A DNA stretch of 64,000 bases from Sulfurospirillum barnesii SES-3 (GTDB lineage: Bacteria; Campylobacterota; Campylobacteria; Campylobacterales; Sulfurospirillaceae), in the NCBI RefSeq assembly GCF_000265295.1, contig NC_018002.1, positions 1,798,001-1,862,000 on the forward strand. The letters are read 5' to 3'. The notes beneath the pieces are model-generated. The model saw nothing but the letters and a program-made list of their open reading frames with translations, was not told the DNA's origin and ran no database searches. Positions 27,439-61,630 of the stretch are shown here, in pieces. Both the position numbers and the translations under genes were made by a program. Every line of letters begins with the position of its first letter. Position 1 is the stretch's first letter.

Positions 27439-29595
27439 CTAAATTTTTAGCTTATACACTTTAGCATAAGCTTCTAAACTGATTGGCTCGAAAAAGCGCT
27501 CATCGTAATTTTCCAAAACAAACATTTGGATATACAATGAATTTAGCATGGCTTCGTCCACAATTAAAAATGTGTTATACGCTTGCATGTAAATAATTGA
27601 GAATACTCCGTTTACATGTAAAGTGTTGTGCACTTTAGAAAACTTCATCTCAGGAGTATACGATGTTTGAATAAACTGTTTAACCATAACCTCTTGTGCA
27701 CCTATTTTTAGGGTACCCTTTGCTTTATCAAATACAATTCCATTGCCAAAATGCAGCAGTGCCCCCTCATCTTTAAAGCGACTACTCTCAAAAAAGAAAG
27801 GCTCTTTAGCTGTTTTACCACTCATGACATCAATATTGCTAAATTGTGCCACTGTTGGAAAAATATGTATCATTCGATACGGCAAATAAAAATAAATATC
27901 CCGTGTTTTTTCGGGTAAAACAAGAGGTGTTTGTAAAGCATCTAAAAAATCATTGGCATCCCTAAAGCCATAATCTAAAGTCATTTTGGCGGTATTATTG
28001 ACAAGTTTTACTTTCTCTTTTTTAGATTTTTTCGTGTTAGACTCTTCTAAACTAAATGCTTTTTCCGTATATTCCACTTCTAAACGTGCCAATCGAGCGG
28101 CTGATTCCATAGAATTTGTGAGCATAAAACTGACAGGAAAATTGACCTCTCCGCTGTGCTTTCCCCCATCAATCAGTGTTTTAACATCGCTGTAATAACG
28201 AAGGGGGTACCCATAATCCCACCATGTCACGATATAATCTTCTCGTTGCACCTGAGATTTTAACATATCTAGTTGCGCGACTTCTGTTTGATTAAAAACA
28301 GTAGGAACACGATAATTCATTACATGTAAAAGATTGGGATACAAAATACCTAAACTAGCAAGAATCACAAAGCTCGATTTTACAATGCTCCCTACCCGAT
28401 CATTCACAAAAGAAGTCATGATAAATTCACTACATGTAAAGAGTAAATACGCCACACCCAACGCACACACAGGAACCGCATAAATGGTAAATCGAAGACC
28501 ACCCCAAAGCGCTAAAAAACCCAGTCCTAAAAGAGGTAAGGCTAAAAACATCACAGGGTAACGCTTCAGAAGCAATCCATACCCAACAAGAGATAAAATA
28601 AATGTCACCGTATGTCCACTGATACGCTCCGCAAAAACACTAAAAGGAATCTGCCCTGCTTCACGAATGGTTTGCATGACCGAAAAGAAATGAAGAGAGA
28701 GTTCTGCATCGGCTACTTCAATAGCATCTTTAAACACATAGCCTTTGAGTTGTACCCAAATAGGCTCAAACCCTCCACTTAGAAAAAAAAGTGCAATAGC
28801 AACTGCCAAAATACCATAGGTATACTTTTGAAATTTTTCTTGCTTAAAGAGCCAATACACACCCATGACAATACCACTACGAATCAGAGCATCCAATCCC
28901 ATCATTGCAAAAAGCATTATGGCTAAAAGCTGGTAATAAAAAATATTTTTGCGCTGAAAAATAAGCATATAAAGCAAAATTAACCCAAAAAAAGCAAACT
29001 CTAACGAATAACTTTGCGGATACCACCAACGATACGCAATAATTTCTATAGCTGTAATAATAAGATATTTTTCTTCTTGCGTGCGAAAAGCCAAAATCAA
29101 TGACCACACTAAAAATGTTGGGAACACAATCGTCAGCATATCCGTATCGTAATATCCCACCATAGTACGATTGTAATAACTCACGGCAATAGAGCCTAAA
29201 AGAGCAGCTAAGAATCCCACTTCTATCATTTTAAGATTGTGAGCGATGAGAATGAGAGGAATGACAATGAGCGAGCCCAAAATAGCAGGCATATAAAAAA
29301 TAATACTCTCAAACGAAAAAGGCAAAAGCTTAACAGCCACATACGTCAACCACGCAGGTGCTGAGTCAATGGGAGAGAGGTCGTACTTTTGAGAAATGCT
29401 ACTGAGCAAGTCTCTAGCCCCTTCCGCCCAATAGTATCCATCGTTGGTATTGATCATAAACTGACCTGCAAATGTAAACGCTTCATAGTCATTAAATTGA
29501 TAGACCCAAATAAGACGGACCACAAAGCTAAATAAAAACGCAATACTACTAAAAATAAAAAGATTTAAATATGAAAAACGTGACATTTTATGCAT
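27439..29595 (-). CDS. pglB: Undecaprenyl-diphosphooligosaccharide-protein transferase PglB
   Basis: 718-residue oligosaccharyltransferase (STT3 family) that moves a lipid-linked glycan to asparagines of periplasmic proteins. About 13 helices span residues 10-425, with the metal-site region NTNDGYYW (D53 area) and YYDTD (150-152), and the external-loop motif QTIREAG near 308-314. The signature WWDYG is at 458-462, almost the same position as in C. jejuni, and DGGKHSG follows. The family's length and all key motifs are intact. Three complete or near-complete palindrome copies lie in the gene. Confidence 0.95.
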   Translation of the reverse strand: MHKMSRFSYLNLFIFSSIAFLFSFVVRLIWVYQFNDYEAFTFAGQFMINTNDGYYWAEGARDLLSSISQKYDLSPIDSAPAWLTYVAVKLLPFSFESIIFYMPAILGSLIVIPLILIAHNLKMIEVGFLAALLGSIAVSYYNRTMVGYYDTDMLTIVFPTFLVWSLILAFRTQEEKYLIITAIEIIAYRWWYPQSYSLEFAFFGLILLYMLIFQRKNIFYYQLLAIMLFAMMGLDALIRSGIVMGVYWLFKQEKFQKYTYGILAVAIALFFLSGGFEPIWVQLKGYVFKDAIEVADAELSLHFFSVMQTIREAGQIPFSVFAERISGHTVTFILSLVGYGLLLKRYPVMFLALPLLGLGFLALWGGLRFTIYAVPVCALGVAYLLFTCSEFIMTSFVNDRVGSIVKSSFVILASLGILYPNLLHVMNYRVPTVFNQTEVAQLDMLKSQVQREDYIVTWWDYGYPLRYYSDVKTLIDGGKHSGEVNFPVSFMLTNSMESAARLARLEVEYTEKAFSLEESNTKKSKKEKVKLVNNTAKMTLDYGFRDANDFLDALQTPLVLPEKTRDIYFYLPYRMIHIFPTVAQFSNIDVMSGKTAKEPFFFESSRFKDEGALLHFGNGIVFDKAKGTLKIGAQEVMVKQFIQTSYTPEMKFSKVHNTLHVNGVFSIIYMQAYNTFLIVDEAMLNSLYIQMFVLENYDERFFEPISLEAYAKVYKLKI

Positions 29596-29603
29596 ACACT
29601 TCC

Positions 29604-31331
29604 TTAAGGATGATGATGAAATTCAGGGACTATCTTTTTGAGTTGTGCTAATTTATCCCTACATGTAAAAAGTTCTTCTATATCTGCTACTAATTTTTCT
29701 ACAGGATATTCGGTCTTATGCGCTACCATGATAGAGGCATATTGTGTCTTTTTATCGCTCTCATTCATAAGAAGCTCTTCATAGAGTTTTTCACCTGCTC
29801 TTAGTCCTATAAATTCGATAGCAATATCATTTTTTCCTGAAAGTTCTATCATTTTTTGCGCTAAATCAACAATTTTGACAGGTTCACCCATATCCAAAAT
29901 AAACAGCTCACCACTCTTTCCAATCGCTCCTGTTTGAAGTACTAATTCACACGCTTCAGGAATCAACATAAAATAGCGTGTAATATCAGGATGAGTCACC
30001 GTAATAGGACCTCCCTTTTCAATTTGCGCTTTGAATTTAGGAATAACAGACCCGCTACTACCCAAAACATTACCAAACCGAACGGCAACTATTTGTGTTT
30101 TGGGAGAGCTAACATTTTGCGCATAGAGTTCACACACGCGTTTTGTTGCACCCATAACATTCGTAGGACGAACGGCTTTATCGGTTGAAATTAATATAAA
30201 CGTACCTACTGCATATTGAATTGCCAAATCAATACAAATTTTTGTTCCCAAAATATTATTTAAAATACCTTCTTTTGGATTTGCCTCCACCAATGGTACA
30301 TGTTTATAGGCAGCAGCATGAACAACAATATTGGGTCTATACTGAGCAAAAACGTTTTTAAAGAGTTCTTCATTTAGAACACTTTGCATAATGGGCACAA
30401 GTTTATCGCTTTGCGACTCTTCCATAATCTGATACAGGTTAAACTCACTGTGATCAACTAAAATCAACTTTTTGGCATTGTACTTTAAACATTGTCGCAC
30501 TATTTCACTACCGATGCTGCCACCAGCTCCTGTTATCAATACAACTTTGTCGTGAATAAATGCTGAAATCTTCGCTTTATCTAGATCTTGAGGATGTCTT
30601 GCTAAAAGGTCTTCAACCGTAATATTTTTAAGTTGATTTGATAAAAAGGTATCGGAAAGAATATCTTCTAGTGCAGGTAAAATTTTAATTTCATTGAAAA
30701 AAGGCTTTAACTCTTCATAAATCGCATTCCTTTTTTTAGCAGATGCAGAAGGAATTGCAATTAACAACAAGTCATACGTACTAGTTTGCATTTTTTGTTT
30801 TAAAATATCTTTCGAAATAATTCTAACTGCATCAATACTTCGTTTTTGAAGTTTTTTATTATCATCAACAAAATAACGTATTTTATACACACTGTCTCGA
30901 AACTCTTCTGCAAGTTTTAGTCCTGCTTTTCCTGCACCATAAATCACAAGCTTTTTCTCTTTTGTAACATGACTTCTGTTTGCTAACATATAGTACGTAT
31001 ACATTAAAAAATTAATCAGAAACAGATACAAGAAAAGTTCTGAAAGCATAAAAGAAAGACGCAATTTTCCATAATAAAAAGGTGCATAGACACAAAAAGC
31101 AGCCATGTAAACAAGGCTTTTCATTAAGAAAGTTTTTTGCGTTACCTTGGACCATGAAAGTGAAAAATCTTTAAAAATAGCAATAGAAGCAATGATGCGT
31201 ACGCTAGCAACACTAGCAATCGTAAACCACTGAATTGGCAAATGAAAAATCCAAAATGTCCATACAAAACTCATACAAGTTAAAACAACAATAACAAGAA
31301 GGTTTAAAATACGTTTATCAATACTGTGCAT
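29604..31331 (-). CDS. pglF: UDP-GlcNAc C4/C6-dehydratase PglF-like
   Basis: 575-residue membrane-anchored dehydratase that would turn UDP-GlcNAc into the 4-keto-6-deoxy intermediate for bacillosamine or QuiNAc. Four N-terminal helices precede a Rossmann-like region (VIYGAGKAGLKLAEEF) and the catalytic SDR domain with ITGAGGSIGSEIVRQC and VHAAAYKHVPLVE. ISTDKAVRPTNVMGATKR carries the S-M-K triad of this subfamily. It matches C. jejuni PglF and WbpM relatives. The PglE aminotransferase and PglD acetyltransferase needed for bacillosamine are not visible in the window. Confidence 0.9.
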   Translation of the reverse strand: MHSIDKRILNLLVIVVLTCMSFVWTFWIFHLPIQWFTIASVASVRIIASIAIFKDFSLSWSKVTQKTFLMKSLVYMAAFCVYAPFYYGKLRLSFMLSELFLYLFLINFLMYTYYMLANRSHVTKEKKLVIYGAGKAGLKLAEEFRDSVYKIRYFVDDNKKLQKRSIDAVRIISKDILKQKMQTSTYDLLLIAIPSASAKKRNAIYEELKPFFNEIKILPALEDILSDTFLSNQLKNITVEDLLARHPQDLDKAKISAFIHDKVVLITGAGGSIGSEIVRQCLKYNAKKLILVDHSEFNLYQIMEESQSDKLVPIMQSVLNEELFKNVFAQYRPNIVVHAAAYKHVPLVEANPKEGILNNILGTKICIDLAIQYAVGTFILISTDKAVRPTNVMGATKRVCELYAQNVSSPKTQIVAVRFGNVLGSSGSVIPKFKAQIEKGGPITVTHPDITRYFMLIPEACELVLQTGAIGKSGELFILDMGEPVKIVDLAQKMIELSGKNDIAIEFIGLRAGEKLYEELLMNESDKKTQYASIMVAHKTEYPVEKLVADIEELFTCRDKLAQLKKIVPEFHHHP

Positions 31332-32305
31332 TACTCAAACTTCTTGTGACAATCAACCCATTTTACGATTGCATATAAAAAAACCAATGCAAGTATAAAA
31401 AAAGCCATTGTGAATTCTTGAAAGTAAAAAGCACTATACCCTAGAATCAATAAAACAAGATTGATACCCATGCCTAAAAGTACGACTTTATCATGCCTTA
31501 AGCCACTTTGGACTGCTCTTTGGTAGGCATGTTTTCGATGGGCTTTGCTTAAACGCTCTTTGTTTTTATAACGTCTTAAAAGGGTCAGTGTTGCATCAAA
31601 CCAAAAGAGCCCAAAAAGAATAAGCCACACAAAAATAGAAACTCCATTATTTTGATCATAAAGAGCAAAAATAGAAACGGTGTACCCTAAAAGCGTACTT
31701 CCGACGTCGCCCATAAAAATTTTTGCTTTATGCCAATTCCATACTAAAAAACCAGCCACAGAAACCATTAAAATCAAAAAATGTTCTCCACCAAATATTA
31801 ACCATCCTGCAAACGTTAAAAAAATGGCTTCACTTCCAGCATAACCATCAATGCCATCTAAAAAATTATAGAGATTGATACACCACATAATTCCCAAAAA
31901 AGCCACTATATTGCAAAACAATGAATTATCAAGTACCAAAAATCCAAAATCAATATGATTGAGCCCACCTAATGTATAAAGCCCTGCAATACTAACCAAA
32001 GCCTGAACAACAAGCCTTACTTTGGGTGATAATTCATATACATCATCTATATAACTTACAAAAGAGAGCACACTACCACACATAAGTGCATAAAATAAAG
32101 AGGGTTCTATCTCTTTACATGTAAAAAAATAAAGAAGTCCCAAAAACCATGTTAAAGCTATTGCAATACCACCGCCATGCGGTGTTGGTACCGTGTGCGA
32201 GCTACGCTCAGTTACCTCAGCCAAGAGAGATTTTTTTAATGCAACAAAACGAATACCATACGTCAAAAGAAATGAAACAAAAAACGCAAGAACATATATC
32301 ATCAT
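31331..32305 (-). CDS. Undecaprenyl-phosphate sugar-1-phosphate transferase, WbpL/WecA-like
   Basis: 324-residue polytopic transferase that starts glycan assembly by placing a HexNAc-1-phosphate on undecaprenyl phosphate. GT4-family MraY/WecA motifs are SYIDDVYELSPKVR, FLDGIDGYAGSEA, NWHKAKIFMGDVGSTLLG and a C-terminal KAHRKHAYQRA loop. The paired NAD-dependent reductase/epimerase downstream and PglF upstream resemble the WbpL-WbpV-WbpM set of Pseudomonas, which suggests a UDP-QuiNAc or related acceptor sugar. A second, more WecA-like paralogue is at 45332-46351. Confidence 0.85.
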   Translation of the reverse strand: MMIYVLAFFVSFLLTYGIRFVALKKSLLAEVTERSSHTVPTPHGGGIAIALTWFLGLLYFFTCKEIEPSLFYALMCGSVLSFVSYIDDVYELSPKVRLVVQALVSIAGLYTLGGLNHIDFGFLVLDNSLFCNIVAFLGIMWCINLYNFLDGIDGYAGSEAIFLTFAGWLIFGGEHFLILMVSVAGFLVWNWHKAKIFMGDVGSTLLGYTVSIFALYDQNNGVSIFVWLILFGLFWFDATLTLLRRYKNKERLSKAHRKHAYQRAVQSGLRHDKVVLLGMGINLVLLILGYSAFYFQEFTMAFFILALVFLYAIVKWVDCHKKFE

Positions 32306-36449: not shown

Positions 36450-37448
36450 TTATTCTATTACTTTAAAGAATAGTATAGCTTTAAAAAACTGCTTAACTTT
36501 TTTAGACTTATTTTTTTTCTGAATAAAGTAATCAAATAAGATGTTAGGAATTAATAAAATAAATATTATTTTTAAATGATTAATAAAAGTAAATTTATTT
36601 GTACACAAGATTTTCAGTATATTTTTTCCATTTTTATTTTTTTTATTTTTAATTACTTTATTTAAAAGATGCTTGTCTATATATAGACTAAGCCACTTTT
36701 TAATATCTTCGTTGTGTGCTAAATTCTTATAATTCATTAAGTTTATTTTAGTAGGTAGTGGCATTTCAAGTCTATCTGTTATAAAGGCTGTATTATTCTC
36801 TGTTTCACTAAGATATATAGCACATTCTTTGGTGTTATATACGATTCTTTTTTCAAGAGCAACTCTAGCCCACACATATTGGTCCTCTCCATATTTTTCA
36901 TCTTCAGGAAACCATATATTATTTTCTACAAATACTTTTTTAGGAATACATGTTGCGGATGTCCAAACTAAATTACTACCTTTTACAATGGATTCAAAAT
37001 AATTTGGGATTAATCCTATATAATCTTTTGAAGGTAACCCTTGTATATCAATTCCACTTTCTTCGCCATTTGCTTTTCTCTTTTTATATGCTGTAGCATA
37101 AAGTCCAGCATCTGGAAAGTTTTGTCTTAGTTCATAAATAGTTTGCAAGAACTCAGGCAGCCACAAATCATCAGCATCTAAAAAAGCTATATATTCTGCT
37201 TTTGCTTCTTTTATGCCATTATTTCTTGCTACTGATACCCCAGCGTTTTCTTGGTTAATGAGCCTTATTCTTTCATCTCGCATCGCTTCAACCATCTTCG
37301 CACTATCGTCTTTTGAGCCATCATTTACCACCACTATTTCAAAGTCTTGAAAAGTTTGAGCTAAAACTGTTTCTATAGTTTCTTTTACATGATTTTGTTT
37401 ATTATAAAGCGGTATCACCACACTAAAAAATGGTTTATCTTCGCCCAT
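36450..37448 (-). CDS. Family 2 glycosyltransferase
   Basis: 332-residue transferase: FFSVVIPLYNKQNHVKETIETVLAQTFQDFEIVVVNDGSKDDSA, then the metal-binding IAFLDADDLWLPEFLQ and the conserved EDQYVWARVAL. The C-terminal 60 residues are very Lys/Asn-rich (KNKKNKNGKNILKIL) and end in a hydrophobic stretch, possibly a membrane tether. It overlaps the pyruvyltransferase-like gene by 14 bases and is the last gene of the cassette. Confidence 0.85.
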   Translation of the reverse strand: MGEDKPFFSVVIPLYNKQNHVKETIETVLAQTFQDFEIVVVNDGSKDDSAKMVEAMRDERIRLINQENAGVSVARNNGIKEAKAEYIAFLDADDLWLPEFLQTIYELRQNFPDAGLYATAYKKRKANGEESGIDIQGLPSKDYIGLIPNYFESIVKGSNLVWTSATCIPKKVFVENNIWFPEDEKYGEDQYVWARVALEKRIVYNTKECAIYLSETENNTAFITDRLEMPLPTKINLMNYKNLAHNEDIKKWLSLYIDKHLLNKVIKNKKNKNGKNILKILCTNKFTFINHLKIIFILLIPNILFDYFIQKKNKSKKVKQFFKAILFFKVIE

Positions 37449-38562
37449 TATTCAATGCTCTCATTAAAAACTCCAAAGACTTCTTCTTTTGCATGCCTAA
37501 AATCTCGTTCACTTTATTGTAGTTTATCTTTCCCAGCTCTCCACCTTCAAAGTTTTTCACATTAAAAACAAGCCTCTCTTTCAGTCCTAGCGCATCAAGC
37601 AAAGATATAAACCTATCAAGCCCTCTGCTCTCATTTCCTATAACTACAAACTCTTTTTCAAAGATGATAGAAAAAACCATCCCATGAAATGAGTCCGTCA
37701 CCACAAAGTCAGCACCAGCAAATGCCGCTAACCATTGGGGCGCAGAGTACGTTACATGTAGCGTGTCAAAACCTTTTAAATGGAGTACATTTTCAAACTT
37801 GTAGATATTTTTTGTAAACTCTATAATCTCTTTTTTCTCTTCCGCCTCATCGAGGACATAGGTAAGAAGTCCCCCTTTACCCACGCCCGTCACGTTGTGT
37901 TTTTTTATAATTTCTTCTTGGTAAAAATCTTTACTCATAAGCATTGTCGGGTCTAGTACATGTACAGCTTTTTCATAGCCAAATGCTTCTTTACATGTAA
38001 GAACTCCCGAAGCTTCTCGCATAGATACAGCCGTAAAATCTTGAAGTAATTTTGCTATCTCCGCATGGTCATTCTCACCCTCCCAGTGGTCTTTTCCAAA
38101 AGAAGCTGCATAGGCTATTTTTTTCGTCCTGCTTCCATCCACAAAGTCTAAAAAATAATTTTTGTAGTATTTCTCATCTATGTATTTCTTTCTCCAAACT
38201 TGGTCGCTTCCTACTATCACAACATCTAGCTTTTGTTCTCTTGCAAACTCTTCTAGGTCTTGCCTTGTGTGCAAATCTTTACTCATTTCAGATATCTCTT
38301 TTTCGATAAATCCTCTATGAAACGCTTTTCTCTTAAGCCTCTCTTTATTGTTTTTATAATTACTTTTTAGACCTCTAAAATCTTGAAAAGGTATTTTTAC
38401 GATCAATGCAATAATAAGCCGCTTCCAAAATACTTGTTTTTTTTGTTTGTATATCAAAACCACATCATGACCTTGAGAACTTAAAAATCTATACAATGCT
38501 ACAGCTTGTAAAATTCCACCATAATTTTCTGCTATTGGTAGGGTTAATATTCCTATTTTCAT
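37435..38562 (-). CDS. Polysaccharide pyruvyltransferase-family protein
   Basis: 375-residue member of the PS_pyruv_trans family, which adds ketal-linked pyruvate from PEP to surface sugars. Typical parts are IGILTLPIAENYGGILQAVALYRFLSSQGHDVVLIY, VVIVGSDQVWRKKYI, KIAYAASFG and the conserved DFVVTDSFHGMVFSIIF. The ATG at 38562 (MKIGILTLP) is favoured over one 42 bases upstream that would overlap the previous gene. Such genes often sit beside FrhB-like genes, as here. It carries the only canonical palindrome (37991-38000) in the cassette. Confidence 0.82.
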   Translation of the reverse strand: MKIGILTLPIAENYGGILQAVALYRFLSSQGHDVVLIYKQKKQVFWKRLIIALIVKIPFQDFRGLKSNYKNNKERLKRKAFHRGFIEKEISEMSKDLHTRQDLEEFAREQKLDVVIVGSDQVWRKKYIDEKYYKNYFLDFVDGSRTKKIAYAASFGKDHWEGENDHAEIAKLLQDFTAVSMREASGVLTCKEAFGYEKAVHVLDPTMLMSKDFYQEEIIKKHNVTGVGKGGLLTYVLDEAEEKKEIIEFTKNIYKFENVLHLKGFDTLHVTYSAPQWLAAFAGADFVVTDSFHGMVFSIIFEKEFVVIGNESRGLDRFISLLDALGLKERLVFNVKNFEGGELGKINYNKVNEILGMQKKKSLEFLMRALNNGRR

Positions 38563-38582
38563 ATTGTAATACACATACTTTT

Positions 38583-39500
38583 CTATAACTTTGTAAAATC
38601 GCAATTATCTGGGTCATATCTTAACCTCATATTTTCATCAATATCATCTATTCTCATAATCTCACTTTTATCTAGTTCAAAATTAAATATATCAATATTT
38701 TTTTCTATATTAGTTTTATTCATAGATCGTGGAATTGCAGGAATTCCTTTTTGGGTATGCCATCTTAAAACTATCTGTGGCACAGATTTATTATACTTTT
38801 TGGCAATTGCTATTAAATCCTGATTTTTAACAATTTTAGGATGCACTCTACCTATTGGAGTATATGCCATTGGCACTATATCTTTTGATTTACAAAACTG
38901 TACTAGTTTTTTTTGCGTCATCAAAGGATGTATTTCAAACTCATTGACAGATGGTATCACCGTAGCAATTTTTAAAATATCCTCAAGATGGTGCTCGTGA
39001 CAGTTTGCCACACCAATTGACTTAACTAAACCTTCTTTGTAAACTTCTTCCATCTGCTTCCAAGTGTCTAAAAACTGGTCAGAAACTGGCCAATGAAACA
39101 TAAAAAGGTCTATATAGTCTATGTTTAATTCACGCAAAGATTTATCTACAGATTCTCTAACTGAGCTATTCCATTGCTCTTTATTGCTAATTCGTGTAAT
39201 GATAAATAAGTCTTCTCTTTTTATCTTACTCATTTTGATACCAAGACTGATATAAAAACCATTTCTATAAGTAGAAGATGTATCTATCATACGATATCCA
39301 GACTTTATAGCATTTTTTATTAAAAAAGCCATTTTAAAGCCTCTCATTATCCATAAAAATCTAAAAAGTGTCCTATGATACAGTGCATTGGTCCATCTTC
39401 CTTTTACCCATTTGGGGGGCTTTACATCATGCATAGGGTCAGCTGTTCCTAGTCCAAAAATAGGCATTGTATTTCCACTAGTTAATAATATATCTTGCAT
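38583..39500 (-). CDS. Aldo/keto reductase
   Basis: 305-residue NADPH-dependent reductase fold. Catalytic residues are in YRMIDTSSTYRNG (Asp, Tyr), the IITRISNK strand and LFMFHWPV (His). The cofactor end is IPAIPRSMNKTNIEKNI, matching the usual IPRS-x4-RI(E)-N phosphate site. The ATG at 39500 follows GGAAAG by seven bases; an earlier ATG overlaps the acyltransferase. It sits with a FabH-like synthase and ACP, so its substrate may be a keto sugar or a 3-ketoacyl thioester. Confidence 0.82.
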   Translation of the reverse strand: MQDILLTSGNTMPIFGLGTADPMHDVKPPKWVKGRWTNALYHRTLFRFLWIMRGFKMAFLIKNAIKSGYRMIDTSSTYRNGFYISLGIKMSKIKREDLFIITRISNKEQWNSSVRESVDKSLRELNIDYIDLFMFHWPVSDQFLDTWKQMEEVYKEGLVKSIGVANCHEHHLEDILKIATVIPSVNEFEIHPLMTQKKLVQFCKSKDIVPMAYTPIGRVHPKIVKNQDLIAIAKKYNKSVPQIVLRWHTQKGIPAIPRSMNKTNIEKNIDIFNFELDKSEIMRIDDIDENMRLRYDPDNCDFTKL

Positions 39501-39502
39501 AA

Positions 39503-40198
39503 TTAAACTTTCCACTCTATATTTTTTTGTATAGGCATCGCTGGGTTACCTGCTACAAGTGTTTTTTCGGGAATATTTCTTATTACCCAAGACCTAGCAC
39601 CTACTATTGAACCATCGCCTATTGTTACACCCTTTGAAATCAATACACCTTCCGTAATCCAGCAGTGATCCCCTATTACAATTGGCTCTTTAATTTTAAA
39701 ATTATCATCAATTATATAGTGAGCATCATAATCTCGGATAACTACATTTCTACCTATCAAAGTACTTTTACCAATAGTAATTTTATCTGCACAAACAATT
39801 TGACAGTGTATGTTACATCCAGCGGCTGGACCACCTTTAAAAATTAAACATCCACCCTCAAAAACTTGCATATCTGCACCTGCATACATTGTAAATTTAT
39901 CGTTTATCGCAAAAAGTGTATTTTTTTCTAGTCTAATTCGTGTTTCAAGTTTAGAGCCTTTTACTTTTGAATACCCTACTGTAACCAAGCCACAAACTTC
40001 AATTTTGGCTTCTGGATGTATATCAAAAACGCAATATTTTGTAGGTATAATTAGATTGCTTTTTTTAAAGTTTGTAAAGCTATTTTTTCTAAAAAAATTA
40101 ATCCAAAAAAACTTATACCATGTCGTTATTGAAAACCCCATGTTTTTATAGAGCAACTTTAAACCTTTTAAAAATTTGATCATTTTATCCCAAATCAT
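39503..40198 (-). CDS. Hexapeptide-repeat (LbH) acyltransferase
   Basis: 231-residue left-handed beta-helix transferase of the WbbJ/maltose-acetyltransferase type. Hexapeptide repeats run through KITIGKSTLIGRNVVIRD, then HYIIDD, EPIVIGDHCWITEGVLISKGVTIGDGSIVGARSWV and the closing AGNPAMPI. The catalytic His is probably in YDAHYI. It likely moves an acetyl or other acyl group to a sugar hydroxyl or amine. It starts within the end of the FrhB-like gene (14-base overlap). Confidence 0.83.
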   Translation of the reverse strand: MIWDKMIKFLKGLKLLYKNMGFSITTWYKFFWINFFRKNSFTNFKKSNLIIPTKYCVFDIHPEAKIEVCGLVTVGYSKVKGSKLETRIRLEKNTLFAINDKFTMYAGADMQVFEGGCLIFKGGPAAGCNIHCQIVCADKITIGKSTLIGRNVVIRDYDAHYIIDDNFKIKEPIVIGDHCWITEGVLISKGVTIGDGSIVGARSWVIRNIPEKTLVAGNPAMPIQKNIEWKV

Positions 40199-41378
40199 AC
40201 TTACTGGCTCCTGGCTTTACAATATTTCTTGCTATCTTTCTAATTTTTTGCTTTAAACTCAGCTTTTTCTTTGGAAAGTATTTGTTTGTAACATAGTCAA
40301 AGTCATATCTGTCCAAATCTTCAAAAAAATATTCTCTGTTTTCTGTAGATTCACTTACTGACTGATATAAGCTTCTATTGCCTGGAATTATGTCTTCTAT
40401 GGTTACTTTCTTAAAGTCAATATTATCAAGTGCTTGAAAATAATTCATTCCTTGATCTGTATTACACATTATTAGTGAAGTTCCCAAGTTATCATCTAGT
40501 TCAGGTGCAACTTTTTCTACACCCCAAAAATCTCCCATCGTAATATCTGCTATTCGTGGATTTTTTTTGAATTTACAATCAAAACATGATACTCGTGTGA
40601 TATTGCCCGTTTGAAGATATCCTCTTGTATAGTTGTCATCTCTACCTTTTGCATAATAGGCTTCACCATTTTCAAAAGTTGCTTTAAAAGTTAAGCTTCT
40701 CCATCCTAATTCTTTGTTTTTCGCTTTTAAATAATTGATTTTTGATCCAAACTTTTTTTCTAAACTATTTAAGTGTTTTTGATAAACTTTTGGAGAGTTG
40801 ATGCCTCTACAAATAAAATCTAAAATAAGTAAGTTTTCATATGGCTTTCGTAAAAACATTCTAAGTCCTGCCATTTGGCAAGGGGTACCACACACAAGAA
40901 CTTTTTCACCTTTTCTTAAAAGTGCTTTGACAGATGCATGAAAACCTGTTAAATCACTTTGTGCATATTTTGAGCTTCTTAGTTTTGGTAAATCATTGAC
41001 GTCATTTGTAACAATATGTTTGATATTAAAATCATTATCATATACTGCTCCCCCAACATACCCTCCCATTTGATAAAATAATTCAGCAAATGCTGTAAAG
41101 ACACCTCCGCTTGTACTATCTTTAATAACTTCTTTGTCTTTGTGTCTTGCGGCATATACTATAGGCTCTTTCCCAACTTTTAGCTTAGGAGAATCAGCAT
41201 TCAGCTCTGGACAAACTTTTTCACAAACCCCACAATCAGTACACTTATCTAAATCAACTTTGGGATACCAAAAACCCTCTTTATCTATCTCAAATCGAAT
41301 CGCCTGAGCATCACTGCATGCATCAAAACAAGCATTACATCCATTGCACTCTTTTTTATCGATAATATTTATTGGCAT
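40185..41378 (-). CDS. FrhB-like iron-sulfur protein (F420 hydrogenase beta-subunit family)
   Basis: 397-residue protein. Two 4Fe-4S clusters are predicted at the N-terminus (CNGCNACFDACS and CTDCGVCEKVCP). The FrhB N and C domains follow: STSGGVFTAFAELFYQMGGYVGGAVYD, LRSSKYAQSDLTGFH, GTPCQMAGL, DFICRGINSPKVYQKHL, CFDCKFK and ADITMGDFWGVE. Campylobacterota do not make F420, so flavin is the likelier cofactor. Members in polysaccharide loci near pyruvyltransferases have no established reaction. Confidence 0.83.
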   Translation of the reverse strand: MPINIIDKKECNGCNACFDACSDAQAIRFEIDKEGFWYPKVDLDKCTDCGVCEKVCPELNADSPKLKVGKEPIVYAARHKDKEVIKDSTSGGVFTAFAELFYQMGGYVGGAVYDNDFNIKHIVTNDVNDLPKLRSSKYAQSDLTGFHASVKALLRKGEKVLVCGTPCQMAGLRMFLRKPYENLLILDFICRGINSPKVYQKHLNSLEKKFGSKINYLKAKNKELGWRSLTFKATFENGEAYYAKGRDDNYTRGYLQTGNITRVSCFDCKFKKNPRIADITMGDFWGVEKVAPELDDNLGTSLIMCNTDQGMNYFQALDNIDFKKVTIEDIIPGNRSLYQSVSESTENREYFFEDLDRYDFDYVTNKYFPKKKLSLKQKIRKIARNIVKPGASKYDLG

Positions 41379-41408
41379 ATTGCAACCTCTCTGAAATCTT
41401 AGACTTTA

Positions 41409-42416
41409 TTATTGACATTCCAATACACAACCAGCCCACGAATAGCCAACACCAAATCCTGCTAGTAAGACCTTATCTTTTTTATTAACTTTATTTTCTT
41501 TTATAGCTCTATTTAAAGCAATCGGAATAGTCGAGGACACTGTATTACCTACATCATCTATACTATATATAAATTTCTCATTTGAAATTTTTGATATTGT
41601 TTTTAGTGTGTCTAGCATAAACTTATTTGCTTGATGAAAAATAAACTGATCGATGTCATCTTTTGATAAAGCATTTTTTTCAAGAGTATCTTTTACAAGC
41701 TTAGGAACAGTGTCCATACTAAACTTAAAAACTTCCGCACCATTCATATATAAATTATTTGGAAAATGATCTTTTTCTATAGCTTCATTCTCATCAAAAT
41801 CCATCATATCATGAAATTTAAATGCACCTGTCTTAACTATTAGATTTTCTGAACCTCGTCCATCTGTTCCAAAACTAAAATTTCCAATTTTTAAGTTTCC
41901 AGTTGTAGAAACTATTGTTGCAGTTGCTGCATCTCCGAAAATAGTTCTATTTTTTTTATCTTTACTGTGCATATGCTTACTATAGGCTTCAGAAGTTATA
42001 AGTAGAACATTTTTAGCCATATTCCCGTTTATTAAACCTTTAGCTAATGATAATCCATAAACATACCCAGAACAACCTAAATTAAAGTCTAATGCCCCAC
42101 AACTTGTTGATAGTCCCAATCTTGATTGCAATGTACATGCTGTTGTAGGTAAAAAATAATCTGGTGTTTGAGTACATAGCAGAATAAAATCGATTTCTGA
42201 CTTATCAATATTATTTTCTGAGAAAAGCTTTTCACTTGCTTGATATGCCATATCTCCTACTGTTTCATTTTTATCAGCAATATGCCGAGAATTTATACCA
42301 ACTTTTTTTGAAACTTTTTCAACTGTCCATTTTGGAAACTCTTTTATCAATTCTTCATTTGTTAATACTTTTTTAGGAAGATAATAGCTTTGAGCTTTTA
42401 TAAAAACATCTATCAT
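41409..42416 (-). CDS. 3-oxoacyl-ACP synthase III-like (FabH family) in a glycan cassette
   Basis: 335-residue thiolase-fold condensing enzyme with a complete Cys-His-Asn triad: C115 in NLGCSGYVYGL, H261 in FIFHQANKFML and N291 in DDVGNTVSST. The closing GFGVGYSWAGCVLE is FabH-like. It abuts a dedicated ACP gene by one base. Its surroundings (ACP, aldo/keto reductase, LbH acyltransferase) suggest synthesis of a short acyl group for a surface sugar, not bulk fatty acids. Very low GC. Confidence 0.87.
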   Translation of the reverse strand: MIDVFIKAQSYYLPKKVLTNEELIKEFPKWTVEKVSKKVGINSRHIADKNETVGDMAYQASEKLFSENNIDKSEIDFILLCTQTPDYFLPTTACTLQSRLGLSTSCGALDFNLGCSGYVYGLSLAKGLINGNMAKNVLLITSEAYSKHMHSKDKKNRTIFGDAATATIVSTTGNLKIGNFSFGTDGRGSENLIVKTGAFKFHDMMDFDENEAIEKDHFPNNLYMNGAEVFKFSMDTVPKLVKDTLEKNALSKDDIDQFIFHQANKFMLDTLKTISKISNEKFIYSIDDVGNTVSSTIPIALNRAIKENKVNKKDKVLLAGFGVGYSWAGCVLECQ

Positions 42417-42650
42417 TTATAAACCTTTTTGTACCAAATCAAATACTTCACCAATAGTTTCACATTCATTTATATCTAACCCAGATAGGTTGACACCGTA
42501 TTCAATATTGATAGCTGCTGACATAGATAAAGTAGCCAAGGAATCAAAACCTTCTAAATCGTCTAAGTTTGTTTCCATACTAATACTTTCTACTGATATA
42601 TCTTCTAAACAACCTGCTATTAACTCTATAAATTTTTGATTATTTTCCAT
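42417..42650 (-). CDS. Dedicated acyl carrier protein
   Basis: 77-residue acidic four-helix carrier with the phosphopantetheine site at S37 in EGFDSLATLSM (canonical DSL). The end, INECETIGEVFDLVQ, matches helix 4. It is clearly divergent from housekeeping AcpP and lies one base before the FabH-like gene. It likely carries the acyl chain made there. Confidence 0.88.
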   Translation of the reverse strand: MENNQKFIELIAGCLEDISVESISMETNLDDLEGFDSLATLSMSAAINIEYGVNLSGLDINECETIGEVFDLVQKGL

Positions 42651-42667: not shown

Positions 42668-44182
42668 TTATTTACCAACATAATTAGTAATATAAATAAG
42701 AATTTTATTTCGCATAGATTTACTCATGTCAAAGTAATATATACTCAATAAAACACCTATTATACTAAGTATAATTATAACAAAAGGGTTCATTACTGTT
42801 AGCACAATAATATCACTCAATACCATTACAATACTCATAACTTTTAATACAGGTAATAAAAAATCATGCCAATATTCATCAAATGAAATATCCGTAAGCT
42901 TGTTAAGTAAATATACTTTTACAACAAAAGCCACTACTATAACTGCAACTATTTGAATATAGAGAATAGCAGTTGGTTCTAAATCATAAAATTTGTAACT
43001 TATATATCCCATTGGTAAGACTAGTAAATATGTAACACCTCCTAATATCTGGTTTTCTTTTATGTTGCCAAGTGCTTTAAATATTGTTCCGAATGACATA
43101 TCAAAAGTTTGTATAAGTGAAAATATCAACATCAATTTACAAAACTCCACAGTCCATTCTGGCACCTCTACAAGCCAAATATTTAAGATTGTTTCTATCT
43201 CTAAATACAAAGGAAGGATCAGCAGTAAAGCTAAATAAAATGTATATCTTGCACTCAATAGTGAGAGATGCTTCATTCCCTCACTATTTTCACCACTATG
43301 CATTTTCACTATCTGTGGATCTACTGCCATTCTAAAACTATTTATTAGTGAGCCAATAGCCATATTTACTTGCATGGAGATACCCCTAGCGGAATTCACT
43401 GCTGGACCAAAAAAAATATTTAGCATGATATTTATGCCATGATTCATAAGCATCCAGGCTAGACTTCCAAACAAACTCCATCCGCTAAAAGAAAGCATCT
43501 CTTTTGCAAGTGGCTTGTCCCATGTGAGACTAAAAGTTGTTTCTGCCTTGTAATACTTTTTATTATAGAAATAGTAAAATCCTAAAATCATCAATACCAC
43601 AAACGCTGTAAAAGCTGCATAAGCAACCAGCTTATCAAAAACAATTATTACCAAAAGATAGACTGCTGCAAGTCTCAAAAGTGCTTCTAGTATGCTCATA
43701 TATGCAAAAAAGCTCATCTTTTCATGAGCAATCACCATTGCATGATAAGGCACTTTTATGATATTTACCATAGTGCTTAATACTGCAAATTGAAACACCC
43801 AAAAAGCTGCCTCTATTCTATCGACTGGAATATTGAGCTTGTTGTTTAAAAACCAAAGACCTATAATCTCGGCTAAAATAAAAACAACTAATGCTAGCCC
43901 AATATGAATAATCATGGAAATAGAAAATACTTTTTGTAACTCTTGGGCTCCAAGCTTACCTAATTCAAAAGTTATAAATCTTTGTGTGGCGGAGGTAAGA
44001 GCAGAATTTAAAAATGCGAGCATAACTACAAAACTAGCTACTACATTATATATACCAAAATCAGTAACCCCTAGAGTAATCAGAACTATTCTAGTGGTGT
44101 ATAAACTCACCGCCATGATAATTATCATGCGGAAGTAAAGGAACATTGTATTTCTAGCTATTCGTTTGTAGTTCTGGGTCAT
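42668..44182 (-). CDS. Wzx-type polysaccharide flippase (MOP superfamily)
   Basis: 504-residue polytopic protein with 12-14 helices. The N-terminus IARNTMFLYFRMIIIMAVSLYTTRIVLITLGVTDFGIYNVVASFVVMLAFLNSALTSATQRFI is characteristic of O-antigen/LPS flippases. It would turn a lipid-linked oligosaccharide across the inner membrane. It starts at the base next to the acyltransferase stop. With a PglK stump downstream, it may have taken over from an ABC flippase. A second MOP flippase is at 54139-55422. Confidence 0.87.
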   Translation of the reverse strand: MTQNYKRIARNTMFLYFRMIIIMAVSLYTTRIVLITLGVTDFGIYNVVASFVVMLAFLNSALTSATQRFITFELGKLGAQELQKVFSISMIIHIGLALVVFILAEIIGLWFLNNKLNIPVDRIEAAFWVFQFAVLSTMVNIIKVPYHAMVIAHEKMSFFAYMSILEALLRLAAVYLLVIIVFDKLVAYAAFTAFVVLMILGFYYFYNKKYYKAETTFSLTWDKPLAKEMLSFSGWSLFGSLAWMLMNHGINIMLNIFFGPAVNSARGISMQVNMAIGSLINSFRMAVDPQIVKMHSGENSEGMKHLSLLSARYTFYLALLLILPLYLEIETILNIWLVEVPEWTVEFCKLMLIFSLIQTFDMSFGTIFKALGNIKENQILGGVTYLLVLPMGYISYKFYDLEPTAILYIQIVAVIVVAFVVKVYLLNKLTDISFDEYWHDFLLPVLKVMSIVMVLSDIIVLTVMNPFVIIILSIIGVLLSIYYFDMSKSMRNKILIYITNYVGK

Positions 44183-45217
44183 TTATTTAAAACCTAATAC
44201 TTCTATAATCTTTTTTGGAAAAATTTTTCTTGAAATTAAAATGATTAAAACACAAAAGCTTAAGACGGATGAAGCTAATAGGGATTGATAAACTAGTTGA
44301 TTTTCTATTAGAGATGGTACAATTTTTACGATAAGGGGGGGGATAATTTTTAATAATAAAACATGTATTAAATATATTCCAAAAGATATTTTTCCTAGAT
44401 ATTCTAGTGTTCTAGATTTAAAAAAATCAATATTTTTAAAAAGTAAGATAATCAAAAAAAATGAAAACATAAAAGACGAAGGTTTCATAGCCGTAGCAGC
44501 AAGTCCTCCATTTCTAAAAAGTGAAAATAAAAAGTATGATTCAAGGCAAGATAATATATAAAAAGTTACCACTAAAGTAATAAGTAGTTTATTGCTTATA
44601 GAAATTTTTTTTATTGACCCAAGATATAAACCAAGAACAAAAAATACTAATAAAACAGGAAAATTTCCTGCATAAAGTATTAGTGGTAGTTTTATGCCCA
44701 TATAATTTCTAATATAAAATGTAATACCTACTACAGCAAAACTTATAAGTAAGCTAATAATCAATCCTCTAAAGTTTGCAAGCTTTTTTAGTATTGGCAA
44801 TAAAATATAGTATTGAATAATTAGAGCTATGAAATAATAAGGTCCGGACGATTGAAAAACCACTAATTTAAATAGTTCACTTGCAATTGATTGATTAAAA
44901 ATCAAAACTTCTAATATTAAAAATACACTAGACCAAAATAAAAAAGGGATGTATATTTTTGGAATTTGCTTTTTGATAAAACTAAAGTATTCACCCCATC
45001 TGGATATATTTTTTTGAACTAAAAAATAACCTGAAATTGCAAGGAATAAAGGAACAGCTATATTTATTAATTGTCTAGTTAATACTGTGAAGTTAAAATT
45101 AAAGCTATCACTTGAAAATTGAAATCCCTTATTTGATGAGTGTATTATCACAACGAAAATAATTGCAGTTCCTCTTAACATATCAAAATATTTAATTCTT
45201 TCATAACTTAACTTCAT
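44183..45217 (-). CDS. Acyltransferase family 3 membrane protein with a C8 tract
   Basis: 344-residue membrane acyltransferase (OafA/NodX type), ten or more helices. The opening IKYFDMLRGTAIIFVVIIHSSNKGF holds the conserved RG and catalytic His; VPLFLAISGYFL follows. Such enzymes O-acetylate surface glycans. A run of eight C residues on the coding strand (44335-44342) spans I-P-P-L at about residue 292. Addition or loss of one base would frameshift the last 50 residues. The start overlaps the PglK stump stop (ATGA). Confidence 0.87.
   Translation of the reverse strand: MKLSYERIKYFDMLRGTAIIFVVIIHSSNKGFQFSSDSFNFNFTVLTRQLINIAVPLFLAISGYFLVQKNISRWGEYFSFIKKQIPKIYIPFLFWSSVFLILEVLIFNQSIASELFKLVVFQSSGPYYFIALIIQYYILLPILKKLANFRGLIISLLISFAVVGITFYIRNYMGIKLPLILYAGNFPVLLVFFVLGLYLGSIKKISISNKLLITLVVTFYILSCLESYFLFSLFRNGGLAATAMKPSSFMFSFFLIILLFKNIDFFKSRTLEYLGKISFGIYLIHVLLLKIIPPLIVKIVPSLIENQLVYQSLLASSVLSFCVLIILISRKIFPKKIIEVLGFK
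44335..44342 (-). repeat. C8 homopolymer in acyltransferase gene (possible phase-variation tract)
   Basis: Eight consecutive G on the plus strand, C on the coding strand, in a very AT-rich gene. I saw no other G/C run above six in the window. G/C tracts of eight or more are the usual phase-variation switches in Campylobacter surface-glycan genes. The present length is in frame. Confidence 0.75.
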
Positions 45218-45339
45218 ATAGATGCCACCCCAATAATTTCCGCAAAAGACATAAAGATGACTAAAAGTTGTAAACGATAAAATTGTTTGCGCTGAGCAAA
45301 TGTCAGTAAAAAAAACAACTCTTTAATAAGCTTATACAT
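45214..45339 (-). pseudogene. Truncated PglK-type ABC flippase, N-terminal stump of 41 codons
   Basis: The reading frame starts with an ATG that overlaps the end of the WecA-like gene by eight bases. It begins M-Y-K-L-I-K-E-L-F-F and ends F-A-E-I-I-G-V-A-S-I. This is the first helix of MsbA/PglK-type ABC flippases, where homologues continue G-P-F-M-A-L. Here homology stops at TGA exactly where the acyltransferase ATG begins. The remaining 500 or more residues, including the ATPase domain, are gone. It appears to mark the right breakpoint of the 36.4-45.2 kb cassette. It may still be translated. Confidence 0.7.
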
Positions 45340-46351
45340 TCTCTTTATAGCCCTTATCTGATATTGTCAAAAGCGAATAGACCAAAACAAAAACGAGCGC
45401 ATACAATACAAAAATAAAAATATCATCTCTTACTTTAAATCCTAACCCAATATACGAAAACAAAATTTGTAATAAACCTAAAATAAAAACTGTTCTAGGA
45501 ATACTTTTGTGGTAGTTTAAAATAAGATGATGCATATGCGTTTTATCAGCCTTAAAGGGATGTACTCCTTGTAAAAAACGACGGAGCATCACGATTAATG
45601 TGTCTAAAATAGGAACCCCTGCTAAGAAGAGTGCTGAAATAGCTGTGATGTACTCTTTTTTAATAGCATAAACAACAATGATTGCGATCATAAAACCTAA
45701 AAACATACTACCGCTATCACCCATAAAAATTTTTGAAGGATGCCAATTAAGCAGCAAAAATCCGAAAATACTGCTCATAAGCATCAATGTTATTGAAAAT
45801 AAAAATAAATCGGTGTATTTATATCCCATATAAGCAAAGGGTAATAAAATTGCTAAAGAAACAACTGATGCTAATCCATCAAGACCATCAATCAAATTCA
45901 ATGAACTTACAAAACCTGATATTGCAAATGAAAAAAACAGCAAAGCAAAGCCATAACTTAAAACAATCTCTTTGCCAAAAAATGTGCCAAAGTGTTCCAA
46001 ACTAAAACCCATGTGAAAAAGACCTACCGCGGGAAGTGCCGTTAAAAAAAGTTTGAGTTTAGAAGAAAGTGGTCGCATGTCATCGTACAATCCAACAAAA
46101 AACACAAAACTCACAGGAATCAAAAAAAGCAAAGAATCAATATAACCTGAGCAAAAGATGCCTACCAGAAAAGATGCAAATAAAGCAATGCCACCACTTC
46201 GTGGTGTTATTTTTGTATGAGAGCTTCGTTCATTTGGAATGTCCAATAGCGGTAAACGATTTTGAAAGCGAATAAGAATAAGATTGAGGGTAAAGGAGAG
46301 TAGTAAAACACAGCAAAGCATAACACTTAAAGGTATATCGATAAGAGCCAT
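45332..46351 (-). CDS. Undecaprenyl-phosphate N-acetylhexosamine-1-phosphate transferase, WecA-like
   Basis: 339-residue polytopic initiating transferase. It has VGLYDDMRPLSSK, NLIDGLDGLASVV, NWHPSKIFMGDSGSMFLG and the C-terminal HMHHLILNYHKS, close to the HIHH motif of WecA. Probably places GlcNAc-1-phosphate on undecaprenyl phosphate for an O-antigen or other polymer. Its paralogue at 31331-32305 lacks the HxHH form, so the two may start different glycans. It is the conserved gene immediately outside the cassette breakpoint. Confidence 0.87.
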   Translation of the reverse strand: MALIDIPLSVMLCCVLLLSFTLNLILIRFQNRLPLLDIPNERSSHTKITPRSGGIALFASFLVGIFCSGYIDSLLFLIPVSFVFFVGLYDDMRPLSSKLKLFLTALPAVGLFHMGFSLEHFGTFFGKEIVLSYGFALLFFSFAISGFVSSLNLIDGLDGLASVVSLAILLPFAYMGYKYTDLFLFSITLMLMSSIFGFLLLNWHPSKIFMGDSGSMFLGFMIAIIVVYAIKKEYITAISALFLAGVPILDTLIVMLRRFLQGVHPFKADKTHMHHLILNYHKSIPRTVFILGLLQILFSYIGLGFKVRDDIFIFVLYALVFVLVYSLLTISDKGYKENV

Positions 46352-58938: not shown

Positions 58939-59754
58939 TTATAATTCTTCTTTCATGCGCAAAAATACTGGAAAACGAGGTTTTCCATTTTTCGTTAATT
59001 CTTTATATTTATAAGTGATTTTTGTTCCAATGGCAGGTGGATTGTGCCTTTGTTCATCACTAAAACCAGAACCGATTTTAAACATTGCTCCTTCATCGTT
59101 TTTACATGTAAGCGCACCTAAAACGCTTTTGTATTTACCCTCACCTTTGTGGTGAGCAAGCACAGTACATTCTGCATCGTGAAAGGTTTTAACTTTCAGC
59201 GAATACGCATCTCTTCCCTCAGCATACAAGCCATCAGGATGGCGAATCACCACGCCCTCACCTCCTGCTTTTTCAACTTCGCTCAAAAAGCGTTTAAGAT
59301 CATTTGCATCTTTACATGTAAACTGCGGAGCAATTTTTAAATAATCCACATAATCTGATTTTAAATAATAATCTAACTTTGATAAGCGCTTGGTTAACCC
59401 TCCCACTTCTTTGGGAACATCAAAGGCATAAAAAGCAAGTTCCCTCCATCCTTCATGTGCCTCTTTTTGCATCACAATGGACTGAATATGCTCAAAATCA
59501 CCCCGCTTACTCCACAACTCTCCATCCACCGCAAAATAAGGAAAGCCTTTGGTAAACCATGAAGGTGTGGCAAAGAGGGTTCCACCTCTTGAGAGGAGCT
59601 TCTCACCATCCCAGTAAGCTCTCACCCCATCCATCTTTTCACTCATCAGCCACCCTGAGATAGTTTGGTCTTTGTAGCTCTCAAGCAGTAAAAGGGAAGG
59701 CTTATCTGCCCACAGCAAACATAAAAACGTCAAGCAAAGCCAAAAAAATTTCAT
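58939..59754 (-). CDS. Secreted ATP-dependent DNA ligase (LigE-type)
   Basis: 271-residue small ligase with a signal peptide ([16 protein letters not shown]), so it should act in the periplasm. The AMP-accepting lysine is K40 in [13 protein letters not shown]; later motifs are [23 protein letters not shown] and [15 protein letters not shown], and an OB domain follows. Minimal ligases of this type occur in Campylobacter, Haemophilus and Neisseria, possibly tied to DNA uptake or extracellular DNA. The ATG at 59754 overlaps the rfbB stop (TAATG). Its place in a sugar operon is odd. Confidence 0.88.
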
Positions 59755-60770
59755 TATGCCTCGTATTTTCTCAAATACCACTCAATCGTTTTGACGATAC
59801 CACTCTCAAAATTCTCCTCAGCGACCCAGCCCAACTTCGTCTCAATTTTTGTCGCATCAATGGCGTAACGTCTATCGTGCCCTGCTCTATCTTCTACAAA
59901 ACTGATTTGCTCTTTATAGAAAGTTGCTTTGGGTTTTAAGGTATCTAAGATTTCACAGATTTTATGAGCGATGTAGAGGTTGTCCCGCTCGTTACGCCCT
60001 CCAATATTATAGGTCTCTCCTGAAGTGCCCTCATGAAAAACGAGGTCTATCCCTTTGCAGTGGTCTAATACATAGAGCCAATCACGAATGTTTTTACCAT
60101 CCCCGTAAATGGGAATGTTTTGATTGGAAAGTGCTTTTCGTATGATGGTAGGAATCAGTTTTTCATCGTGTTGTTTAGGCCCGTAATTGTTCGAACAGTT
60201 TGTAATCACCGTATTCATTCCATAGGTGTGATGATAGGCACGTACTATCATATCGGAGCTGGCTTTACTCGCCGAATAGGGAGAATTAGGCGCATAAGGT
60301 GTACTCTCTGTAAACAAACCCATCTCTCCCAATGTGCCATAAACCTCATCGGTGGAGATATGATGAAACCTGCACGTTTCAAACCCCTCTTTTAAAACAA
60401 AAGGCTTTTGCATCCACGCTTTGTACGCCACGTCAAGAAGTGTAAAGGTGCCATTGACATTAGTTTCCACAAAAACACCTGGATTTTTAATGGAATTGTC
60501 CACATGTGACTCTGCTGCAAAGTGAATCACCCCTTGAATAGTGTATTGCTCAAACAAAGACTCCACAAGGTCTCTATCACGAATGTCTCCTTGCACAAAG
60601 GTATGACGAGGATGGTTTTGCACTTCGCTAAGATTTTCCATAGTGCCTGCATAGGTTAAAAGGTCTAAATTAATAAGATGATACTCTGGATGCTCCGCCA
60701 AAAAGTAGGGAACAAAATTGGAGCCAATGAAACCTGCACAGCCTGTTACTAAAATTGTTTTTTGATTCAT
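59754..60770 (-). CDS. rfbB: dTDP-glucose 4,6-dehydratase
   Basis: 338-residue SDR dehydratase: [53 protein letters not shown] with the catalytic Asp-Glu pair, YSASKASSD (YxxxK) and CSNNYGPKQ. Gives dTDP-4-keto-6-deoxyglucose from the RfbA product. Overlaps rfbA by four bases. RfbC and RfbD for rhamnose are not in the window. Confidence 0.95.
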
Positions 60771-61630
60771 TTGACCAAATCCTTGAGGTATTCACCATAC
60801 CCGTTTTTGCTCAGAGGCTTGGCAATTTCTAAGACACGCTCTTTATCAATCCAGCCATAATTATAAGCAATCTCTTCCAAACAGGCGATTTTGTAGCCTT
60901 GGCGTTTCTCAATGGTTTGCACAAACATTCCCGCCTCTATCAAACTATCATGTGTTCCTGTATCTAGCCACGCAAACCCACGTCCGAGCACTTCTACATG
61001 TAAATCCCCACGCTTCAAGTACGCCTCATTCACACTGGTGATTTCAAGTTCACCTCGCTCACTGGGTTTGACATTTTTAGCGATTTCAATCACATCGTTA
61101 TCGTAAAAATAAAGCCCCGTCACCGCAAAATTTGATTTTGGATTTTTTGGTTTTTCTTCGATGCTGATGGCTTTTTGATGCTCATCAAATTCCACCACAC
61201 CAAAACGTTGTGGGTCTTTCACCTGATAGCCAAAGACCACCGCTCCTTTTTCAAGTTTGGCTGAGCTTTGAAGCAAAGGGGTAAAGCCTTGTCCGTAGAA
61301 GATATTATCGCCCAGAATGAGACACACGCTATCATTACCTATAAATGCTTCACCCAAAAGAAACGCTTGTGCAAGTCCATCGGGGCTGGGTTGAATTTTA
61401 TAGACAAGCTCTATGCCCCATTGGCTTCCATCGCCCAGAAGCTCCTCAAATTTTCCAATATCACTCGGTGTAGAGATAATGAGTATCTCACGAATCCCCG
61501 CTAACATCAAAACCGAGAGCGGATAATAAATCATCGGCTTATCATAGATAGGTAAAAGCTGTTTAGAAATAGACTTTGTCACAGGATAAAGCCTCGTTCC
61601 ACTGCCTCCTGCTAAGATAATCCCTTTCAT
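60767..61630 (-). CDS. rfbA: Glucose-1-phosphate thymidylyltransferase
   Basis: 287-residue nucleotidyltransferase: [46 protein letters not shown] at the N-terminus, then [51 protein letters not shown] and [16 protein letters not shown]. Makes dTDP-glucose. Two bases separate it from the mutase gene, which would supply glucose-1-phosphate. Confidence 0.96.

Follow-up and report, generated by a model that had tools for sequence, protein, structure and literature searches.

One of the closest described relatives of the genes analysed here comes from Pseudomonas syringae pv. tabaci, whose viosamine island (vioS, acp, vioR and vioB) places N-(3-hydroxybutanoyl) on viosamine; mutants without the reductase gene vioR no longer carry modified viosamine, and homologous open reading frames (ORFs) lie in the glycosylation island of P. 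aeruginosa PAK (PMC3927599). Here we compare it with a polysaccharide locus of Sulfurospirillum barnesii SES-3, found in a 64,000-nucleotide stretch (the window; NC_018002.1, positions 1,798,001 to 1,862,000) of the complete 2.51-Mb genome. Both have a ketosynthase III, its own acyl carrier protein (ACP) and an acyltransferase in a glycan locus, but the viosamine island also has a reductase of the short-chain dehydrogenase/reductase (SDR) type and the vioA aminotransferase, and it lacks the aldo/keto reductase (AKR), the FrhB-like protein and the PF04230 protein seen in the window. The flagellin/vioA locus of Burkholderia glumae plasmid pBGF3 (L044) is similar: it shares a ketosynthase (48% identity), an ACP and an acetyltransferase with the window, but has an SDR, vioA, a second ketosynthase and a Rieske protein, and no AKR, FrhB or PF04230. 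We read the window genes, with a probability of roughly 0.62, as a laterally acquired polysaccharide-decoration cassette of Bacteroidota affinity in which two separable modules have been joined, one of ketosynthase and ACP (module A), the other centred on FrhB and PF04230 (module B). This cassette comprises the first eight of the following features, which were judged by Pfam cut-offs with extra scoring against NCBIfam models:

44183 to 45217, minus strand: Acyl_transf_3 (PF01757) membrane acyltransferase, heading the gene run (Pfam, 139 bits)
42668 to 44182, minus strand: Wzx-like flippase (PF01943, Pfam); the cognate Bacteroidota loci hold homologues that are 38-42% identical
42417 to 42650, minus strand: dedicated ACP (PF00550, 34 bits; Ser37 in a DSL motif)
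41409 to 42416, minus strand: FabH-like beta-ketoacyl-ACP synthase III (KASIII) of a glycan-locus clade (PF08541/PF08545, 102/76 bits; C115-H261-N291)
40185 to 41378, minus strand: FrhB/FdhB-family flavin and Fe-S protein (PF04432/PF04422, 66/31 bits, plus Fer4)
39503 to 40198, minus strand: left-handed beta-helix (LbH, hexapeptide) acyltransferase, WbbJ/WcaF/NeuO-like (Hexapep, 31.7 bits)
38583 to 39515, minus strand: DkgA/YvgN-like AKR (PF00248, 142 bits)
37435 to 38562, minus strand: PF04230 polysaccharide pyruvyltransferase-family protein (PS_pyruv_trans, 132.7 bits)
36450 to 37448, minus strand: GT2 glycosyltransferase, next downstream, of uncertain cassette membership (Pfam, 115 bits)

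The five ORFs from the ACP to the AKR, which the first-pass annotation had described as a contiguous, self-contained acyl-group module, were all found in place on the minus strand and all score above the Pfam cut-offs. The run in fact extends beyond 38583: the PF04230 gene follows the AKR, and the Wzx and Acyl_transf_3 genes precede the ACP. Nor is the set self-contained, as it lacks a dedicated SDR and omits the gene most strongly associated with FrhB, that for PF04230. All cassette ORFs in the window are intact and tightly spaced: those of the ACP and ketosynthase abut, those of FrhB and LbH overlap by 14 bp, and for those of LbH and the AKR, a GTG start of the AKR gives an overlap of 13 bp and a start at its internal Met6 (near 39500) a gap of 2 bp. 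The PF04230 ORF extends from a TTG at 38604 (37435-38604), with the likely start an ATG at 38562, 20 bp past the AKR stop. Weak GT2 matches also occur downstream of the PF04230 gene in several relatives.

Within its family, this genome is the only one of 44 with both the ketosynthase and the AKR. The cassette is absent from the 43 other genomes, which have only a housekeeping FabH (about 35% identity to the ketosynthase), and two of which hold more distant AKRs; across the phylum, relatives of the ketosynthase above 40% identity occur in 8/397 genomes, this one counted. We also scanned 84,980 species genomes with the ketosynthase and examined the 80 top-scoring loci from a longer list; the fractions given below are therefore not free of bias. 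The ketosynthases of these loci are 52-62% identical to the window copy, and nearly all lie in polysaccharide loci of Bacteroidota. The G+C content is 28-33% at 36-46 kb of the window vs mostly 36-42% outside the glycan locus. The simple reading is that the cassette was probably acquired laterally from, or via, Bacteroidota. Megablast comparison with E. coli genomes gave no match to any of the five genes, and neither did a search of genome contigs with the AKR as sole query.

The first-pass annotation had proposed a neighbourhood search in other genomes, and the set does recur beyond this strain. FrhB, LbH, ACP, ketosynthase and AKR are all present in a Paraprevotella metagenome-assembled genome (MAG; L092), a Bacteroides MAG (L096) and two Bacteroidales genomes (L101 and L117), and the three of these loci that are long enough also contain Wzx and PF04230; a fifth locus (L119) has the whole set except the AKR. 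Since the five activities recur in unrelated Bacteroidota contigs, their association is not due to chance, and an artefact confined to the window can be rejected. The four AKR-bearing loci, unnamed in the literature searched, differ from the window in gene order, and three of them also have an SDR. In all five, FrhB and LbH form one ORF of about 600 aa, whereas they are unfused in the window; as they form a single ORF in these five loci, we consider that FrhB and LbH belong together.

The ketosynthase itself is clearly a KASIII. It has both ACP_syn_III domains and scores 282 bits against NCBIfam model NF006829 (cut-off 249), and the triad of Cys115, His261 and Asn291, previously reported as intact, is invariant in a 9-sequence alignment. 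It falls short of the FabH model TIGR00747 (254 bits vs a cut-off of 292), and the genome has a separate housekeeping FabH at C1:229 kb, 35% identical to the window enzyme. Ser37 of the ACP was likewise confirmed and lies within GFDSL. Fifty-six loci have a full-length ketosynthase with sufficient flanking sequence; of these, 55 have an ACP no more than 5 kb away and 51 have an SDR reductase. The acyltransferases are mostly of the PglD-type LbH or GNAT kinds, and a DegT aminotransferase is often found alongside. The viosamine islands and B. glumae pBGF3 are laid out in the same way. At the window locus we saw no SDR of this type, and the best SDR elsewhere in the genome is 34% identical to it. 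By eye we recognised no VioA/DegT sugar aminotransferase among the window ORFs (no scan with a DegT model was made, and the genome's other loci were not searched). A third KASIII-like gene of this genome (L054; G000 C1:2210000-2222000) sits among several ketosynthase genes in what resembles an aryl polyene cluster, and was rejected as a part of this system.

Synthesis of a 3-oxoacyl-ACP on the dedicated ACP by module A is well grounded by family membership and precedent. The ketosynthase would condense the malonyl group carried by its own ACP with an acyl-CoA primer (probably acetyl-CoA). The earlier suggestion that the FabH-like enzyme and ACP make an acyl chain for the glycan is thus plausible, with the vioS/acp/vioR/vioB genes as experimental precedent (PMC3927599). 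As the usual SDR is missing, the 3-oxoacyl-ACP would then be reduced by a non-linked reductase, such as the housekeeping FabG, or be used as such, and either the membrane Acyl_transf_3 or the LbH enzyme would place the acyl group on a sugar.

Of these two transferases, LbH was previously taken as the one that attaches the acyl group. A role as a dedicated acyl-ACP transferase is not supported: its nearest relatives are O-acetyltransferases of the WbbJ/WcaF type (77.6 bits against the WbbJ-type NCBIfam model, under the cut-off, with LpxA/LpxD scoring lower), and it is also fused to FrhB where the ketosynthase and ACP are lacking. Module A may feed the membrane Acyl_transf_3, which would O-acylate a lipid-linked or exported glycan, leaving LbH as an ordinary acetyl-CoA-dependent O-acetyltransferase. 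In five SDR-less ketosynthase loci (L057, L066, L079, L084 and L129), a membrane acyltransferase of MBOAT type adjoins the ACP and ketosynthase (the domain is confirmed in all but L057), possibly for acyl-ACP-fed membrane O-acylation of polysaccharides. Judged by sequence alone, the window Acyl_transf_3, which heads the gene run, could play the same role, and in L096 a 697-aa ORF fuses an Acyl_transf_3-homologous domain to PF04230. However, that fusion partner is neither the ACP nor the ketosynthase, among the full-set loci we noted Acyl_transf_3 in no others than the window and L096, and the usual donor of this family is acetyl-CoA. We consider this route possible, if tentative. In these five SDR-less loci a gene of about 310 aa follows the MBOAT gene; the one scanned had no Pfam match.

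The AKR was the proposed reductase in the first-pass annotation, and this assignment is difficult to maintain. Although it has the PF00248 domain, the AKR does not have the full Asp-Tyr-Lys-His tetrad; D78, Y83 and H141 are kept, while the Lys is replaced by Arg108. The same Arg is found in all six close AKRs (those of the window, L092, L096, L101, L117 and L171), whereas the Lys is kept in the seven aligned AKRs of other types, among them those of L202 and L204. Members of this subfamily share a longer N-terminal part (in the window AKR an insertion of about 35 residues) and, where complete, a C-terminal RYDPDNCDF, and full-length members occur in only 2/393 Bacteroidales genomes. The structure model of the AKR is of low confidence (predicted local distance difference test, pLDDT, 67), so we left the insertion and Arg108 uninterpreted on it.

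The missing SDR and the lost AKR Lys could also be taken as signs of a decaying, non-functional import. This seems very improbable, and we reject it: the ORFs are intact and tightly spaced, the catalytic residues of the ketosynthase and ACP are conserved, and the Arg is a trait of the subfamily rather than of decay, since it is common to all five close relatives.

Could the genes nevertheless form one simple pathway? In such a scheme the AKR, replacing the SDR, would convert the 3-oxoacyl-ACP to 3-hydroxyacyl-ACP, LbH would pass the acyl group on to a sugar nucleotide, at either an amino or a hydroxyl group, and FrhB would perform an extra redox step. It would account for the lack of an SDR at the window locus and for the single tightly spaced run, L117 also has an ACP, ketosynthase and AKR without an SDR, and an LbH-type acyltransferase (VioB) serves the viosamine islands. 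However, an SDR is the reductase in most ketosynthase loci and accompanies the AKR in all but one of the four Bacteroidota loci that hold it, the same AKR subfamily occurs beside FrhB in a genome without such a ketosynthase (L171), and both the Arg shared by all six AKRs and the FrhB-LbH fusions without a ketosynthase or ACP fit poorly. The five genes thus probably do not form one simple pathway, and we regard this alternative as unlikely.

The separability of the two modules is seen directly in other genomes. FrhB-LbH occurs as a single ORF in eight loci, and in L140, L202 and L203 it is found with PF04230 but without a ketosynthase; in L171, FrhB stands beside an AKR of the window subfamily, again with no ketosynthase at the locus. 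Altogether, combinations of FrhB, LbH, AKR and PF04230 lacking a ketosynthase were found in L140, L171, L202, L203 and L204, so it is module B, and not the ketosynthase, that the AKR and LbH go with. In the genomes of L171, L202, L203 and L204 there is no ketosynthase of the glycan clade at E<=1e-60, while the genome of L140 (G359) has one on another contig. In L171, an MBOAT gene is followed just downstream by an AlgJ/SGNH-like gene (13663-16142).

Within module B, FrhB and PF04230 are closely linked. Across the 80 loci, eight have both, one has FrhB alone (on a short contig), one has PF04230 alone and 70 have neither; PF04230 is thus present in 8/9 FrhB loci vs 1/71 others. Bacteroidales FrhB relatives in polysaccharide loci mostly have PF04230 adjacent or a few genes away; of four relatives that lack it, most are found among non-polysaccharide genes. 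Annotated plasmids from Pseudobutyrivibrio, R. albus and B. finegoldii also carry the two side by side, and a natural fusion exists: a single 805-aa ORF at L142:7736-10153 encodes FrhB_FdhB_C followed by PS_pyruv_trans.

What the comparisons establish is the gene content, its conservation, the fusions, the separability of the two modules and, as a model, the FrhB fold; catalytic steps and substrates are inferred throughout. Some points weigh against the reading of two joined modules. In L117 there is no SDR between the ACP and ketosynthase but there is an AKR, as expected if the AKR were the ketoreductase. In L092 and L101 we saw no acyltransferase besides the FrhB-fused LbH, so LbH may still take acyl-ACP in these loci. 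The Bacteroidota comparators with the full set are few (4-5) and mostly MAG contigs, and the Fisher test of the FrhB-PF04230 association (p 2.8e-9) takes related loci as independent.

FrhB itself has the domains (PF04422 and PF04432) and the fold of its family. Two 4Fe-4S Cys sets are conserved (C11/14/17/21 and C46/49/52/56, eight Cys), and the AlphaFold model (pLDDT 85) matches F420-reducing subunits, F420-dependent sulfite reductase (Fsr) and HCAR with Z scores of 20-27. It resembles the F420 hydrogenase beta subunit, the N-terminal half of Fsr and HCAR in fold (Z 17-27) and 4Fe-4S motifs, but is only about 20% identical to them and has the PF04230 protein rather than a hydrogenase as its partner. 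We rejected F420 as its electron carrier, because the F420 ligase (PF01996) was not found in the genome, though it was detected in methanogen controls; ferredoxin or another donor is likelier. The PF04230 protein, in turn, shares its domain with the ketal pyruvyltransferases CsaB, Pvg1p and WcfO (PMC6801904) and differs from them in its linkage to FrhB. It had no sequence match in the PDB at E<=0.01.

In our preferred idea for module B, the PF04230 protein would attach a group derived from phosphoenolpyruvate (PEP) to a sugar, FrhB would carry out a flavin-dependent reduction of that group or of the sugar with electrons that reach it via the two Fe-S clusters instead of F420, and LbH and the AKR would modify the same residue. 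The product is possibly a reduced pyruvate-derived (lactyl-ether) substituent. A more specific version treats FrhB and PF04230 as a MurA/MurB-like pair, with enolpyruvyl transfer from PEP and flavin-dependent reduction giving a lactyl (1-carboxyethyl) ether. Klebsiella K22, K37 and K66 contain 4-O-(1-carboxyethyl)-glucuronic acid, and Butyrivibrio exopolysaccharide contains 1-carboxyethyl sugars. Such a pair would fit the way in which FrhB and PF04230 are linked and fused, there are reductases (HCAR, for example) among the FrhB relatives with an assigned role, and lactyl ethers are known as glycan parts (PMC10609480). In a Klebsiella survey (PMC4616057), the four capsule types K8, K22, K37 and K66 have PF04230-type genes and no pyruvate, and among the cps genes overall a single 'coenzyme F420 hydrogenase' and two nitroreductases are listed. 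As characterised PF04230 enzymes make ketals, and as some Bacteroidales FrhB relatives (L211-L213, L218) lie outside polysaccharide loci, we find a MurA/MurB-like pair rather doubtful. The fuller proposal, in which the Arg-bearing AKR and the FrhB-fused LbH complete this new substituent, joined to an acyl-ACP-derived group, is less likely still.

The first-pass annotation knew of no described system with this exact set. This holds only in part: the acyl genes are of a known kind, while the combination of FrhB, PF04230, LbH and AKR is undescribed in the literature searched, which also contains no functional study linking FrhB/F420 hydrogenase with a polysaccharide pyruvyl transferase. FrhB-like proteins are widespread in the polysaccharide loci of anaerobes, where that literature assigns them no function. 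The linkage and fusions of FrhB with PF04230 and LbH, and of PF04230 with Acyl_transf_3, provide a concrete set of partners, distinct from the acyl-ACP module described before. Should the lactyl-ether reading prove true, pyruvyltransferase annotations beside FrhB would need changing, and glycan structures could be better predicted for many gut bacteria.

Several other genes in and near these loci were noted. RmlA- and RmlB-like genes lie at 59754-61630, with RmlC and RmlD not recognised within the window. Reading the sequences by eye, we found a PglB-like oligosaccharyltransferase and a PglF-like dehydratase adjoining the locus (27439-31331), and PglB-like and PglF-like genes also occur near the related ACP-ketosynthase module in L047. 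By the same reading, two WbpL/WecA-like sugar-phosphate transferase ORFs (31331-32305 and 45332-46351) are found in the one locus; perhaps two glycans are initiated there.

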